Positions 9,694-61,209 of a DNA stretch of 61,451 nt are shown one piece after another (positions within the stretch are counted from its first letter, which is position 1; each line of letters opens with the position of its first letter). A model generated the notes under the pieces. It was not told the origin of the DNA. It did no database searches and worked only from the letters and a program-made list of their open reading frames with translations. Origin of the DNA: a virus; IMG/VR virus record IMGVR_UViG_3300032462_000005, positions 1 to 61,451 of that record. One strand, written 5' to 3'. Both the position numbers and the translations under genes were made by a program.

Positions 9694-10482
9694 TTATGCG
9701 CCGTATCTGTCAGGCCCAAATAACTTTCTGCTTAAACTAGCAATAGCTTGTTTTTCTATGCGGGCAAACATTCTTCGTAGTTTTGCGGTTTTAACCGCTA
9801 CTGAGGACATAGCCGGAGAAGCGCCCCCTTCTAGTGGCATAAGCAATTGTTTTAAATCTACATCGCTTCTACGCCCTTGATCTACAACATCAGTCATACC
9901 CCGAAGTAGATTTAACAAGGTATCTCTACCCCCGGACTCACTACCACTTCTGTACCCTTCTTTATTGCCAGCATTATAGCCGGACTCACTACCACTTCTG
10001 TACCCTTCTTTATTGCCAGCATTATAGCCAGTAAATCGACCAAGCAGCCCTCCCAGAACGCCACCAATACCAGTACCAACTAAAGCGGAACGAATGCCTG
10101 ATTGTTTTTCTTCAGCTTTCTTTTCTATGCGGGCAAACATTCTTCGTAGTTTTGCGGTTTTAACCGCTACTGAGGACATAGCCGGAGAAGCGCCCCCTTC
10201 TAGTGGCATAAGCAATTGTTTTAAATCTACATCGCTTCTACGCCCTTGATCTACAACATCAGTCATACCCCGAAGTAGATTTAACAAGGTATCTCTACCC
10301 CCGGACTCACTACCACTTCTGTACCCTTCTTTATTGCCAGCATTATAGCCGGACTCACTACCACTTCTGTACCCTTCTTTATTGCCAGCATTATAGCCAG
10401 TAAATCGACCAAGCAGCCCTCCCAGAACGCCACCAATACCAGTACCAACTAAAGCGGAACGAATGCCTGATTGTTTGTGCAC
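9694..10482 (-). CDS. Protein with perfect-looking internal tandem duplication
   Basis: This 262-residue protein is essentially one 123-residue unit written twice. Each unit has a glycine-rich hydrophobic head (ALVGTGIGGVLGGLLGRF), two copies of a 16-residue GYNAGNKEGYRSGSES repeat, and an LLNLLRG...RRMFARIEKKAEEKQ tail. I chose GTG at 10482 (after AAGGAG, 6-base spacing) over the TTG at 10512. The heads resemble membrane-active glycine zippers. The IEKKAEEKQ tail is shared with the C-terminus of the 6423..9494 protein. Probably a virion component. Confidence 0.7.
   Translation of the reverse strand: MHKQSGIRSALVGTGIGGVLGGLLGRFTGYNAGNKEGYRSGSESGYNAGNKEGYRSGSESGGRDTLLNLLRGMTDVVDQGRRSDVDLKQLLMPLEGGASPAMSSVAVKTAKLRRMFARIEKKAEEKQSGIRSALVGTGIGGVLGGLLGRFTGYNAGNKEGYRSGSESGYNAGNKEGYRSGSESGGRDTLLNLLRGMTDVVDQGRRSDVDLKQLLMPLEGGASPAMSSVAVKTAKLRRMFARIEKQAIASLSRKLFGPDRYGA
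9752..10476. repeat. Direct tandem repeat, two 356-bp copies
   Basis: Bases 9752-10107 and 10121-10476 appear identical by eye over the stretches compared, offset by 369 bases (123 codons, frame-preserving). Each copy contains two 48-bp subrepeats. The near-identity indicates a very recent duplication or ongoing homogenisation. Confidence 0.9.
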
Positions 10483-53006: not shown

Positions 53007-53082
53007 TGTTAATATAGGTAAGAGTTACATGGTAACTTGCCCCTAGGGGCAAGTTACCATATTCTACTATCTTCGATAGTAT
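53007..53082. repeat. Left arm of 76-bp inverted repeat
   Basis: It matches the reverse complement of 54283..54358 with one mismatch. It contains a perfect 28-bp palindrome (53031-53058, centred on CCTAGG, arms beginning GGTAACTTG) and a second hairpin TACTATC/GATAGTA with a three-base loop (53065-53081). It also carries GGTAAGAGTTACA, seen again at 52458-52470. Confidence 0.9.
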
Positions 53083-54282: not shown

Positions 54283-54358
54283 ATACTATCGAAGATAGTA
54301 GAATATGGTAACTTGCCCCTAGGGGCAAGTTACCTTGTAACTCTTACCTATATTAACA
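54283..54358. repeat. Right arm of 76-bp inverted repeat
   Basis: It is inverted relative to 53007..53082 with 75 of 76 bases matching. It contains the same 28-bp perfect palindrome (54307-54334) and the second hairpin (54284-54300). The arms enclose exactly 1200 bases. The arms do not extend further into either flank. Confidence 0.9.
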
Positions 54359-54737: not shown

Positions 54738-55025
54738 TTACTCACATACGATTAGATTATCATCATTTATTTCAATGCAACTAGGATTCCACTTCTTTTC
54801 TTTCCAAATTCGACCATTGTAGGACATATACCCTACAATTTTGTCGTTTATATGCACAGAGCATACTCCCCAGTTACCTCCACCACAATTAGTTTGTAAT
54901 TGCCATTCTCGCACCTTTGCACGTAGTTCTGCAATCGTGGTTGCAGTAAGCTCTTCCTTTTCTGTTTTGTTGGGGTTTTGCCCGTAGTCCGGGTTCCCGT
55001 GTTTTTTTATCTTAATCTTCATCAT
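54738..55025 (-). CDS. Small hypothetical protein
   Basis: This 95-residue protein is not recognised by name. It has a basic N-terminus (MMKIKIKKHGNPDYGQ), a TATTIAELRAKVREWQLQ helix and a core WGVCSVHINDKIVGYMSYNGRIW. The start region overlaps the last array gene by 14 bases and uses a GGAG within it. Confidence 0.6.
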   Translation of the reverse strand: MMKIKIKKHGNPDYGQNPNKTEKEELTATTIAELRAKVREWQLQTNCGGGNWGVCSVHINDKIVGYMSYNGRIWKEKKWNPSCIEINDDNLIVCE

Positions 55026-55263
55026 AAGTTACTCCTGTCGGTAGATATATGTCAGACCAAGACTGAGACCCCAACCTAGACCCAGACCAAGACCCAGACC
55101 TAAACCGAGACCGAGACCCAGGCCGAGACACAGGCCAAGACCCAGACCAAGACATAGATATAGACCAAGACCAAAACCCAGACCCAGACCTAGACACAGG
55201 CCAAGACCCAGGCCAAGACCCAGACATAGTATCTTGGTTACATAAGGTTACTTTTCTTATCAT
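55012..55263 (-). CDS. MIR-W array copy 8 (last transcribed)
   Basis: This 83-residue protein begins MIRKVTLCNQDTMSGSW and is built of alternating Ser with Trp, Gly, Arg and Phe. It lacks the NKTRSAK ending of the other copies and runs into a different C-terminus (DIYLPTGVTYDED), overlapping the following gene by 14 bases. Its start overlaps copy 7's stop (ATGA). No signal peptide, membrane span or catalytic motif is visible. The function is unknown. Confidence 0.6.
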   Translation of the reverse strand: MIRKVTLCNQDTMSGSWPGSWPVSRSGSGFWSWSISMSWSGSWPVSRPGSRSRFRSGSWSGSRLGSQSWSDIYLPTGVTYDED

Positions 55264-55478
55264 TTAGCACTCCTGGTTTCGTTTTTAGACCCAAACCGAG
55301 ACTCAGACCAAGACCCAGACCTAAACCGAGACCGAGACCCAGGCCGAGACACAGGCCAAGACCCAGACCAAGACCCAGACCAAGACCCAAACCGAGACGC
55401 AGACCCAGACCCAGGCCAAGACTTAGACCAAGACCAAGACATAGTATCTGGGTGGCATATGGTTACTTTTCTTATCAT
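55260..55478 (-). CDS. MIR-W array copy 7
   Basis: This 72-residue protein begins MIRKVTICHPDTMSWSW and ends KNETRSAK. The N-terminal six residues plus CHPDT match copy 4 exactly, so these two are duplicates or have been converted. Ser-x repeats with x mostly Trp, Gly, Arg or Phe fill the middle. It overlaps copies on both sides by four bases. Confidence 0.65.
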   Translation of the reverse strand: MIRKVTICHPDTMSWSWSKSWPGSGSASRFGSWSGSWSGSWPVSRPGSRSRFRSGSWSESRFGSKNETRSAK

Positions 55479-55687
55479 TTAGCACTCCTGGTTTTGCTTT
55501 TAGCCCAAGACATAGACCCAAACCGAGACCTAGTCCAAGACCAAGACCAAAACCAAGACCCAGACCAAGACCCAGACCCAGGCCCAGACCCAGGCCAAGA
55601 CCCAGACCAAGACCCAGACCCAGACCTAGACCGAGACCCAGACCAAGACAGAGCATCCTGGTTACATAAGGTTACTTTTCTTATCAT
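55475..55687 (-). CDS. MIR-W array copy 6
   Basis: This 70-residue protein begins MIRKVTLCNQDALSWSG, sharing the LCNQD head with copy 8. It is made of SGSWSGSW-type repeats and ends SKTRSAK. The ribosome site AGAAGTGCTAA is inside the 3' end of copy 5. It is coupled on both ends. Confidence 0.65.
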   Translation of the reverse strand: MIRKVTLCNQDALSWSGSRSRSGSGSWSGSWPGSGPGSGSWSGSWFWSWSWTRSRFGSMSWAKSKTRSAK

Positions 55688-55857
55688 TTAGCACTTCTGG
55701 TTTTGTTTTCAGCCCAAGACCAAGACCCAAACCGAGACTCAGACCAAGACCCAAACCCAGGCCAAGACCCAGGCCAAGACGCAGACCGAGACCGAGACCA
55801 AGACCCAGACCAAGACACAGACATAGCTGGGTGACATACGGTTACTTTTCTTATCAT
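55684..55857 (-). CDS. MIR-W array copy 5 (short)
   Basis: This 57-residue copy begins MIRKVTVCHPAMSVSW and ends NKTRSAK, sharing the head and tail of its neighbours. The repeat body is shorter (about 35 residues), indicating copy-number change of the hexamer/dodecamer units. Its start overlaps the TGA of copy 4, and its stop overlaps the ATG of copy 6. Confidence 0.65.
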   Translation of the reverse strand: MIRKVTVCHPAMSVSWSGSWSRSRSASWPGSWPGFGSWSESRFGSWSWAENKTRSAK

Positions 55858-56096
55858 TTAGCACTCCTAGTTTTGTTTTTAGACCAAGACACAGGCCCAA
55901 ACCGAGACCGAGACCAAGACCAAGACCAAAACCAAGACCCAGACCAAGACCCAGACCAAGGCCCAGACCCAGGCCAAGACCCAGACCAAGACCCAGACCA
56001 AGACCCAAACCGAGACGCAGACCCAGACCCAGGCCAAGACTTAGACCAAGACACAGACATAGTATCTGGGTGACATATGGTTACTTTTCTTATCAT
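55854..56096 (-). CDS. MIR-W array copy 4
   Basis: This 80-residue copy begins MIRKVTICHPDTMSVSW and ends NKTRSAK. The body has about 30 Ser-x pairs with Trp, Gly, Arg, Pro and Phe. It is the longest of the regular copies. It sits between copies 3 and 5 with ATGA overlaps, and its ribosome site lies in the 3' end of copy 3. Confidence 0.65.
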   Translation of the reverse strand: MIRKVTICHPDTMSVSWSKSWPGSGSASRFGSWSGSWSGSWPGSGPWSGSWSGSWFWSWSWSRSRFGPVSWSKNKTRSAK

Positions 56097-56324
56097 TTAG
56101 CACTCCTAGTTTTGTTTTTAGTCCAAGACACAGACCTAGACCTAGACCAAGACTCAATACTACTGTCGTTGGCTTATAAACTTAGAGGTAGAAAACAGCA
56201 TAGATAAAGACGCGCTCGGGCCTCTAGACCGGTCCCAATATGCAGTCCAAGATCGAGACTTATAAAGTCGCCTAGACCACCCATGGGATCTGGCTGTATT
56301 AAAATCAATTGTTTTCATTATCAT
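56093..56324 (-). pseudogene. MIR-W array copy 3 (frameshifted)
   Basis: ATG 56324 follows AGGAG and opens MIMKTIDFNTARSHGWSRRL, but the frame ends at TAG (56160). The conserved tail (SWSRSRSVSW, then NKTRSAK) is present one frame away, ending in the TGA that overlaps copy 4. The length (232 bases, one more than a multiple of three) shows a single-base indel or needs a frameshift. It is strongly diverged from copies 4-8. Confidence 0.5.
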
Positions 56325-56345
56325 TGATAACTCCTAAAGTGAATT

Positions 56346-56531
56346 TTACCTTATTGGTTTGTGCCAACTTTGGCTGTAAGGATAACAAGTACGCCAATAA
56401 TGTAAAGATATAGAACGACCCCAACTCCAAGATACAGATCTAAACTTGGCCCAATTACTAGACCAAGGGGTAGGCACAGACCAACATCTTGATTTGGCGA
56501 CAAGGCGTGGTCTGAATGCTAGTCTTATCAT
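56346..56531 (-). CDS. MIR-W array copy 2 (diverged)
   Basis: This 61-residue frame begins MIRLAFRPRLVAKSRCW and has scattered Ser-Trp pairs (WSVPTPWSSNW, SVSWSWGR) but no regular repeat, and ends without the conserved SAK tail. The start follows GGAGAC, nine bases upstream. It is a diverged, perhaps decaying member between copies 1 and 3. Confidence 0.5.
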   Translation of the reverse strand: MIRLAFRPRLVAKSRCWSVPTPWSSNWAKFRSVSWSWGRSISLHYWRTCYPYSQSWHKPIR

Positions 56532-56545
56532 TTTTTATGTCTCCA

Positions 56546-56794
56546 TTATTTAGCGTTTTTAGAAAAACCATGAAGTCTATGGATGAGTGCCCAAGACTTA
56601 TAGCAAGTCTTGGGGTTAGGCCAAAGTTCATTATCATTATTGATCTACCGCCGTGCGACTCTTGTTACATTGTACGATTCTTGTTGGGCAGTAGACCAAG
56701 ACGCAGACCAAGTCTGCCGTAAAAGTTTAGACCAAGATACACACCTAAACCAAGATTCAGATTTATGCGTTGTGCTAACAGACCTTCTTATCAT
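56546..56794 (-). pseudogene. MIR-W array copy 1 with in-frame TAG at codon 50
   Basis: ATG 56794 follows AAAGGAG and opens MIRRSVSTTHKSESWF with several SW pairs. TAG at 56645-56647 stops it after 49 codons. The same frame then continues (ELWPNPKTCYKSWAL) to TAA at 56546 after a KNAK ending that echoes the conserved tail, giving 82 codons, the normal array length. A nonsense mutation or readthrough is likely. The first transcribed member and the most diverged from 4-8. Confidence 0.5.
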
Positions 56795-56846: not shown

Positions 56847-56869
56847 GGGCTAGAGCGATGCTCTAGCCC
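56847..56869. other. 10-bp stem hairpin before the array
   Basis: GGGCTAGAGC/GCTCTAGCCC with a three-base loop lies between the stop of 56894..57211 and array copy 1. On the minus strand it is followed by a C/G-rich stretch and only later by TTTT, so it resembles a weak terminator or processing site that may separate the array from the upstream operon. Confidence 0.55.
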
Positions 56870-56893: not shown

Positions 56894-57211
56894 TTATTTA
56901 TCCAACGGTGCAAAGCACCAGCGTGGCTGATAAATGATTTCTATCGCACCTAGGCTGATTACTATGCTCGAAGTGATGATATCTTCTGTTTGCGGTTCTT
57001 CCAGTGAGGATGCCCCTGAAGTTTCCACGGCACGAGCTTGTGCCAATATTATGAAATCTGAACCTACGGCGCTCATAATTCCACGGTAGTTGTACCGTGC
57101 ACAGAGTACAGCACATTGCTGCCCTATGTATTGTTGTGCCACTTCGCTCAGGCTTAGAGCGGGGCTGCCAGTAGGGTTTACTAAAGACGACTGACTTTTT
57201 ACTTTTTCCAT
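56894..57211 (-). CDS. Hypothetical small beta-rich protein
   Basis: This 105-residue protein has a core YIGQQCAVLCARYNYRGIMSAVGSDFIIL and a hydrophobic end VISLGAIEIIYQPRWCFAPL, resembling small Sm-like beta-barrel proteins seen in clusters with GEVTGHAH-type and DUF6745-like genes. It begins with ATG after a poor ribosome site (GGAATTAATG). The function is unknown. It ends just before a hairpin. Confidence 0.62.
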   Translation of the reverse strand: MEKVKSQSSLVNPTGSPALSLSEVAQQYIGQQCAVLCARYNYRGIMSAVGSDFIILAQARAVETSGASSLEEPQTEDIITSSIVISLGAIEIIYQPRWCFAPLDK

Positions 57212-59949: not shown

Positions 59950-61209
59950 TTACTTCAACTTGTCGATTCTTTCGCCAATCCACCGCATTACAGGCACAGC
60001 CATTGAGTTGCCTAATGCTTTGTAACGCAGACCATCAGGACATTCGCTTGCTGATTTTTTACCCCAAGGAATCGCGGTGTAATCGTCTGGAAATCCTTGA
60101 AGTCGCTCGCATTCACGAGGGGTCAGACGGCGAACTGCCAAAGGGAATGTGTTAATAACAACCCCCTCAACTGGAGAACCGTCTGACTGAAAACCACTGT
60201 CTGGGTTGGCACGCAATGTTCCAGCCTTTTTTGCTGTTGAAAAACAAAGAATTGAAGGTTCATGCCCTTTTGTTTCTCTACGCAAAGTTCCAATTGTGCC
60301 ATCTGTCATTACATTCATTACGCTGCCACCCTGATCCATTAAAACAATTGGATGTACCACGATGTCGCTTGCACCTTTGTGATCGCGGGCAGCCATGGTC
60401 GAAGCTACTGGTGCAGTCCCATACTCTCCACTACTTTGTCGATCAAAGCACATGGCTTGCATAACTGTAGGACCTGACGCATTAGAACTACTACCCGGTG
60501 TGCCTAGCGTTGCCGCTACCTCACCAGTGATCGAACCGTTGTAACAATCCGTACCAATTGCATAGTTACCATTGGCTATTTGATCGGCATCGACGCCACG
60601 CTCTCCAGAGCCATCTGTAAGAGTGGCGGCAATTTTTTGCCCCTTTTCGCGGCTCGGCGTAGGATTCCGGCGCACGCTTTCGGACTCAAATAAAACTTGG
60701 GCGGCACGGCCTGCGTCTCCAAGACATCCGACAACGAACACACGACGACGTCTTTGCGCCACTCCGAACCATTGAGCGTCCAGCACCCTAAAGGCGAACC
60801 CATACCCCAAGTTCCCCAGCGCTCCGAGGAAGGTTCCAAAATCCCTTCCTTGGTTACTTGACAGAACGCCAGGGACATTTTCCCAAACGAGCCACCGAGG
60901 TTGGTAACTTTCAGCGATTGCAAGATAGGTAAGCATAAGATTACCTCTGGGGTCTTCAAGACCTTTGCGTAATCCTGCGATGCTAAAACTTTGGCAAGGA
61001 GTTCCTCCGACGAGTAGGTCGATTTCTGCATGTGGTTTCCAATCTTTATACTTAGTCATGTCGCCAAGGTTAGGCACGGTTGGGTAGTGGTGCCTGAGTA
61101 CTGCGGAAGGAAACTTATCAATTTCAGAAAAAGCCACTGGCACCCATTTAAGTGGATGCCATGCGACAGTGGCTGCTTCTATGCCGGAGCACACAGATAA
61201 GTATTTCAT
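59950..61209 (-). CDS. DNA (cytosine-5) methyltransferase
   Basis: This 419-residue C5 methyltransferase is complete. Motif I is SVCSGIEAATVAWH, motif IV is GGTPCQSFS (catalytic Cys), motif VI is ENVPGVL, motif VIII is QRRRRVFVVG, motif IX/X are RLTPRECERLQGFPDDY and ALGNSMAVPV. A long variable region (about 200-330, target recognition) lies between VIII and IX. It would protect phage DNA from restriction. No partner restriction enzyme is seen. ATG overlaps the upstream stop by four bases. Confidence 0.93.
   Translation of the reverse strand: MKYLSVCSGIEAATVAWHPLKWVPVAFSEIDKFPSAVLRHHYPTVPNLGDMTKYKDWKPHAEIDLLVGGTPCQSFSIAGLRKGLEDPRGNLMLTYLAIAESYQPRWLVWENVPGVLSSNQGRDFGTFLGALGNLGYGFAFRVLDAQWFGVAQRRRRVFVVGCLGDAGRAAQVLFESESVRRNPTPSREKGQKIAATLTDGSGERGVDADQIANGNYAIGTDCYNGSITGEVAATLGTPGSSSNASGPTVMQAMCFDRQSSGEYGTAPVASTMAARDHKGASDIVVHPIVLMDQGGSVMNVMTDGTIGTLRRETKGHEPSILCFSTAKKAGTLRANPDSGFQSDGSPVEGVVINTFPLAVRRLTPRECERLQGFPDDYTAIPWGKKSASECPDGLRYKALGNSMAVPVMRWIGERIDKLK

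Follow-up and report, generated by a model that had tools for sequence, protein, structure and literature searches.

A two-gene phage module pairs a predicted Sm/LSm-fold protein with fast-evolving arrays of Trp/Ser/Arg microproteins

Eukaryotic SR and RG-rich splicing proteins carry Ser-Arg dipeptides or Arg/Gly-rich disorder beside Sm cores, and the Argonaute hooks (GW/WG repeats) are disordered proteins in which Trp is flanked by small residues. In Hfq, the disordered C-terminal domain is thought to tune the binding of RNA by the Sm core (PMC5606850). The locus described here lies in IMG/VR virus record IMGVR_UViG_3300032462_000005, of which positions 1 to 61,451 constitute the window, i.e. 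the whole stretch of 61,451 nt that was analysed. A sequence-only reading had drawn attention to a tandem array of translationally coupled Trp/Ser/Arg microproteins on the minus strand; it missed that the array forms a two-gene module together with an upstream Sm-fold gene, the array being the part that evolves fast, and that this module is found well beyond this phage. The features of the locus are given below, from high to low coordinates.

56894-57211, minus strand: gene for a predicted Sm/LSm-fold protein, 105 aa (family HMM E = 1.5e-5; AlphaFold pLDDT 83.8, pTM 0.73; Foldseek)
56847-56869, minus strand: hairpin GGGCTAGAGC-ATC-GCTCTAGCCC (fold z = -3.3)
56645-56794, minus strand: microprotein copy 1, 49 aa, diversified type
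56458-56637, minus strand: extra MIM-start ORF, 59 aa, overlapping copy 2; function not supported
56346-56531, minus strand: microprotein copy 2, 61 aa, diversified type
56160-56324, minus strand: microprotein copy 3, 54 aa, diversified type
56097-56159, minus strand: frame-shifted copy relic between copies 3 and 4 (repeat end, KNKTRSAK tail and copy 4 ribosome site)
55854-56096, minus strand: microprotein copy 4, 80 aa, periodic (S-x)n type
55684-55857, minus strand: microprotein copy 5, 57 aa, periodic; start overlaps the copy 4 stop
55475-55687, minus strand: microprotein copy 6, 70 aa, periodic; start overlaps the copy 5 stop
55260-55478, minus strand: microprotein copy 7, 72 aa, periodic; start overlaps the copy 6 stop
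55012-55263, minus strand: microprotein copy 8, 83 aa, periodic, with a different tail; start overlaps the copy 7 stop, end overlaps the next gene
54738-55025, minus strand: next gene downstream, 95 aa, overlapping copy 8 by 14 nt

The eight W/S/R-rich short ORFs (minus strand, 55012-56794) were confirmed to be present. All start with ATGAT, which gives MIR in seven and MIM in copy 3, as the sequence-only reading had it. Regular NGG-TCT hexamers, which place Ser at every second residue with Trp, Gly or Arg in between, were found in copies 4-8 only, copies 1-3 being rich in Trp, Ser and Arg, diversified and without strict periodicity; the description of all eight genes as hexamer-built is thus right for the last five. 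The lengths follow the same division, the 57-83 residues proposed earlier being those of copies 4-8 and the overall range being 49-83 aa. Membership in the (S-x)n family is likewise by the full pattern for copies 4-8 and by composition only for copies 1-3, as in the relatives described below. That the first base of each hexamer decides between W, R and G was verified in copies 4-8 and also across the wider family (NGG); this regular form is one of several states of the genes, the closest relatives having diversified copies that are mostly non-periodic. Copies 4 and 7 have a common head, as do copies 6 and 8, and the AGGAG-type ribosome sites of copies 4-8 are located within the RSAK codons of the preceding gene, both as first reported. 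ATGA stop-start overlaps exist at four junctions (4/5, 5/6, 6/7 and 7/8); the one also claimed at 3/4 is instead a gap of 63 nt between the end of copy 3 and copy 4, occupied by the relic, which reads ...ESWSRSRSVSWTKNKTRSAK followed by a stop (repeat family D2 places the junction unit at 56063-56153). The extra MIM-start ORF is possibly a decayed copy. The 95-aa downstream gene was considered as a part of the module and rejected, its other homologues (L003-L010) having neither an Sm gene nor a W/S-rich ORF.

Other features of the window were noted. A 76-nt inverted repeat (53007-53082 and 54283-54358) is 99% complementary, its arms being 1200 nt apart. Near the module, the minus strand at 59950-61209 encodes a C-5 cytosine DNA methyltransferase (PF00145, E = 2.5e-56). 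Positions 9745-10476 consist of a 99% tandem duplication with a 369-bp unit, which is either a real duplication or an assembly effect.

To characterize the repeat outside the window, viral contigs, which are fragments, were scanned for five GGTCTN units; this gave at least 120 matches, and the frequencies derived from them are lower bounds. At most of the scanned loci a start codon is present near the 5' end in the W/S frame only. In 185 tracts from the viral contigs listed, the in-phase codons that correspond to a G-to-A change at the second base were GAG (103), CAG (52) and AAG (40), against no TAG at all; since TGG is as common as GGG in these tracts, the W/S frame is kept free of stops. 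Other phages spell the same protein pattern with TCG or TCA; in a few more, reached without any repeat query, it is spelt with TCC, AGC or AGT. One Ser codon is nearly always used per locus, all six being represented across loci, and x is nearly always NGG, the first two scans having selected on NGG plus TCN. Because different loci use all six Ser codons for one protein pattern, a purely DNA-level reason for it is excluded; the Ser-codon pattern fits selection on the protein combined with concerted repeat expansion. The alternative frames, Gly-Leu and antisense Arg-Pro, in both of which x is synonymous, were rejected: starts, coupling, TAG avoidance, the other Ser codons and the conservation of Trp fit the W/S frame only.

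GGTCTN repeats also occur in bacterial genomes, which could be taken to mean that the array is an ordinary hexanucleotide microsatellite, or an assembly artefact, with frames left open by chance. The bacterial tracts, used as a control, are homogeneous, with a median x entropy of 0.0 bits, 91% identical neighbours and no heads, against 1.46 bits and 36% for the viral tracts, which are mixed. The homogeneity and the lack of frame constraint expected of a microsatellite were therefore not observed, and the starts, the coupling and the linkage to the Sm-fold gene also contradict this explanation. As for an artefact, an identical 8 kb stretch that includes the array was found in a second IMG/VR contig, of 157 kb, and related contigs have the same architecture, so that a one-off misassembly, which the sequence-only reading had named as a way to be wrong, does not account for it. 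We reject this explanation: the eight-gene array is real and coding, and the six Ser codons, the lack of in-frame TAG and the homogeneity of the bacterial repeats show that protein composition is selected. One bacterial assembly, JAGPCY01 (Kofleriaceae bacterium Gw_SlAct_bin_340; e.g. L268, L300, L327), contains very many simple repeats of the GGTCTN type in coding-like sequence.

Clustering of the neighbouring ORFs of 150 repeat loci among the matches listed revealed one immediately upstream, same-strand family in 106 of them, the second commonest cluster being present in 11. With an HMM of this family, 114 of the 150 listed loci were found to carry it, usually directly 5' of the repeat gene; of the 36 others, about a dozen are truncated on the upstream side, and false positives account for some. 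A reverse search from the partner side, which is independent of the repeat, yielded 30 loci, and in 24 of the 25 distinct partners with downstream sequence an (S-x)n gene followed. The exception (L401/L402) is a homologue of the Sm-fold gene without repeat microprotein, the downstream gene reading MKMKKPQENCERILELAIMNLLAQ... instead. Partner and microprotein genes overlap by 4 nt (ATGA) at 63 loci; in the window they are separated by 99 nt. The product of the second gene has a short head and is mostly 40-130 aa long (about 30-130 aa in the family as a whole), and no fused Sm-tail protein was encountered among the loci searched. In total, more than 150 environmental contigs were seen to carry the module, whereas the annotated phage collection has it in two metagenome-assembled records only, MW202573.1, where the products of both genes are labelled hypothetical, and MW202825.1. 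Patescibacteria were considered as a host group, as two MAG contigs (L282, L313) carry the module, but 287 genomes of the phylum gave only the known one, and misbinned phage contigs are as likely an explanation. In unrelated phage contigs (L026, L012, L093, L123, L074, L119 and others), tandem arrays range from about 3 copies to over 9, some of which keep tails (YSETG, RSWFRSTK) as well as heads. In four loci reached only via the Sm-side search (L381, L389, L395, L404), the W/R/G set is partly given up for Met, Gln or Leu (SMSMS, SQSRSQS, SLSRS).

The product of the upstream gene is predicted to have an Sm/LSm fold. AlphaFold models were obtained for the window protein (pLDDT 83.8) and for a member of a second partner type, type II (pLDDT 89.1); both consist of an N-terminal helix followed by a barrel of five to six strongly bent strands. 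With Foldseek, both models matched mainly Sm, LSm and archaeal SmAP chains (best E 5.5e-4 for the window model and 8.6e-4 for the type II member, probability 1.00), and the best 50 PDB matches of the window model were Sm/LSm proteins or LSm-fold chains in larger complexes. The family displays the hydrophobic pattern of the Sm1 region (YxGxLxxVxxxxxxLxxA), with the strand 2 glycine (G44 in the window protein) invariant across 73 members. An Sm2-like I/V-GRG-x-I is present in many type II members, and absent from the other type II members, from type I and from the window protein. At the sequence level, Pfam and PHROG profiles gave no assignment for the family, the Pfam LSM profile (PF01423) had no match above cutoff (best E = 0.021, for one of the 73 members), and a search of PDB sequences with the partner returned nothing. 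Structural neighbours in BFVD include DUF6948 phage proteins, with a distant similarity to some partner members. The partner types go with head types: type I partners are accompanied by basic heads such as MIRGKKQKW and type II partners by heads such as MNAAVLRTGFDRS (48:28 versus 2:61 by a simple rule; Fisher p = 5e-15, uncorrected for shared ancestry). Linked inheritance alone could produce this association.

In many phages the genes next to the module encode DNA polymerases, helicases, primases and ssDNA-annealing proteins (Sak4, Erf, RecT, Bet), which places it in an early or replication region. This environment bears on two alternatives. According to the first, the tails are toxic cationic Trp/Arg peptides, acting in lysis or as membrane or nucleic-acid poisons, and the Sm-fold protein is their partner or antitoxin. 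Two small coupled genes with the partner first, and tails that are Trp/Arg-rich and strongly basic, would be in keeping with this; the module adjoins genes for replication and recombination, not for lysis, and up to 15 coupled copies are unlike toxin-antitoxin loci, so that we hold this alternative to be improbable. According to the second, what matters is the translation process or the DNA/RNA repeat itself, with rare NGG codons slowing ribosomes or hexamers serving as recombination sites near ssDNA-annealing proteins, and the protein is incidental. Annealing proteins are indeed among the neighbours, x is encoded by NGG although synonymous codons are available for some residues, and the repeats do turn over. 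However, six different Ser codons preserve nothing but the protein, nonsense codons are avoided, and diversified copies in which the DNA repeat is gone are under purifying selection and conserve their Trp residues (see below); we strongly disfavour this second alternative.

The diversified copies are best documented in the window's own clade. Nine further contigs, of up to 181 kb, have partners 68-71% identical to that of the window (four of them are identical to one another over the locus), and all nine have downstream arrays, of 6-15 genes. The genes of these arrays nearly all start with ATGAT, often overlap by 4 nt, are Ser/Arg-rich with 10.5-13% Trp, and are largely without periodic repeats. 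Over 26 orthologous pairs dN/dS was about 0.44; of 169 Trp sites, 167 were identical, compared with 83% of the Ser sites and 80% of those of other residues. A register of two can still be recognized: relative to Trp, Ser is over-represented at odd distances and under-represented at even ones, W/R/G occupy the even distances, and 84% of the Trp-Trp spacings are even, versus 46% after shuffling. Because this register persists in diversified copies and Trp is near-invariant there, the periodic type appears to be the young stage of these genes and the diversified type the old one, Trp being the residue kept by selection.

In the periodic tails, pooled over 168 arrays, W:R:G is 0.32:0.34:0.34, and their order is near random (neighbour ratios 0.92-1.06), identical neighbours being slightly rarer than expected (1245 versus 1336 ± 26). 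Composition is not tightly fixed from one array to another, as indicated by a moderate over-dispersion (chi2/df 1.5). The median net charge is +10 on 64 aa. Comparison of close relatives showed how the tails change. Two contigs (L033 and L045) differ at 4 of 3395 flanking positions (99.9% identity), yet at 40 of 135 x-codon bases, and at none of the 138 Ser-codon bases. In another pair (L383 and L384), 99.4% of the partner gene and the head are shared, while the tails are unrelated and of different lengths; in a third (L070 and L123), the difference amounts to whole-gene turnover. Constant hypermutation of x is not supported, the close pairs among L044, L066 and L122 showing no change in the array. 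Since some close pairs are unchanged while others have had their tails replaced, the change is saltatory, as expected of in-frame recombination or slippage, which is how the sequence-only reading had supposed variants to be generated.

Such saltatory replacement between near-identical phages is also what would be seen if the module were directed against host defence. The tails would then be hypervariable decoys or inhibitors, for instance Trp-motif ligands of a host defence protein comparable to the GW/WG Argonaute hooks, the Sm-fold protein their carrier or chaperone, and the tandem copies a supply of variants for an arms race. The expansion to 6-15 genes, the strong conservation of Trp with small residues around it and the early-gene location are all consistent with this. 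The near-random order of W/R/G and the similar composition in unrelated phages suggest instead a physical rather than an epitope-like role, and no defence target is known. An anti-defence or host-interaction module is, on these grounds, the main rival of the explanation preferred below, although we consider it less likely than not.

The most far-reaching reading is that of an undescribed phage RNP system, in which an Sm-type protein would receive Trp/Arg tails in trans from a birth-and-decay array that springs from hexanucleotide expansion and keeps composition over sequence, and would assemble phage RNA, or trap host RNA; we give it a probability of about 0.3. The explanation that we prefer is its mechanistic kernel, RNP assembly by an Sm-type RNA-binding core and disordered cationic Trp/Arg microprotein tails acting in trans; it is tentative as well, if slightly easier to accept than the whole. 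The Sm-fold partner, the charge of +10, the conserved Trp and the nearly free order fit it. The first part of the module is the small protein with the predicted Sm/LSm fold, which may bind RNA and possibly forms a ring, as its relatives do. The second consists of one to about 15 coupled microproteins, each with a short conserved head, which would dock on the Sm-fold protein, and a presumably disordered cationic tail. The Trp and Arg residues of the tails would bind RNA and each other as stickers, with Ser and Gly as spacers, and the resulting RNP assembly or condensate could protect, concentrate or regulate transcripts early in infection. New tails would arise by hexanucleotide expansion and age into diversified Trp-rich proteins, the locus being a birth-and-decay nursery of which the window would hold both stages. 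Three observations go against the RNP reading: the canonical Sm2 Arg-Gly is missing from type I and from the window protein, composition is over-dispersed between arrays, and the hypervariability fits an arms race as well. The Sm partner, the early/replication neighbourhood and the positive charge narrow, without deciding, the choice among the roles listed in the sequence-only reading (adhesion, decoy, condensate, nucleic-acid binding); its view of the genes as translated and translationally coupled microproteins is supported.

A candidate regulatory or Sm-binding RNA lies between the two parts of the module. The hairpin of the window is perfect and lies 24 nt past the Sm-fold gene. Among six relatives tested, three (L532, L533 and L537) have an 11-bp stem at a similar position, about 39-43 nt past the stop of the partner gene, and an equivalent stem was absent by the same test from the other three (L530, L531 and L538). 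The stem core AGAGC-NNN-GCTCT is common to the window and these relatives, and the outer pairs differ yet stay paired.

As far as searched, the module is undescribed in the literature and in profile libraries. The sequence-only reading knew of no named family of this type, and none was found in Pfam, PHROGs or papers; for the microproteins, the lack of a Pfam or PHROG match is weakened as a test by their low complexity. Rfam gave nothing usable, no paper was found to report the module, and absence from these sources and from PDB sequences is no proof of novelty. A blast match to Synechococcus phage S-SCSM1 proved to lie antisense within a gene for a virion protein, and is unrelated. The module is of interest in three respects. 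A predicted fold that is familiar chiefly through splicing and RNA chaperones is tied, in phages, to low-complexity partners. The tails obey a readable rule (period two, W, R and G about equal, order nearly free, Trp retained), which makes a disordered-sticker grammar testable with natural libraries. Finally, the arrays show clearly how genes can be born again and again, under selection, out of a hexanucleotide repeat.

Compared with known systems, the DUF6948 proteins show a distant structural likeness to some partner members, and none of the 73 members matches the Pfam DUF6948 profile. The tails resemble the Argonaute hooks with a denser Trp content, a likeness that we take as a lead only, homology not being expected. 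From the SR and RG-rich splicing proteins they differ by their strict period of two and by having Trp at one third of the x positions, and here too likeness is without expected homology. With Sm, LSm and archaeal SmAP proteins, the partner shares the predicted fold, an N-terminal helix and a five-stranded barrel; it differs from them by an identity of about 20% or less, by its near-obligate low-complexity partner gene and by being phage-borne. The closest known mechanism is that of Hfq, which likewise combines an Sm core with a disordered tail; there the tail is fused and acidic, whereas in the phage module it is a separate, multiplied and hypervariable gene, whose product is cationic and Trp-rich.
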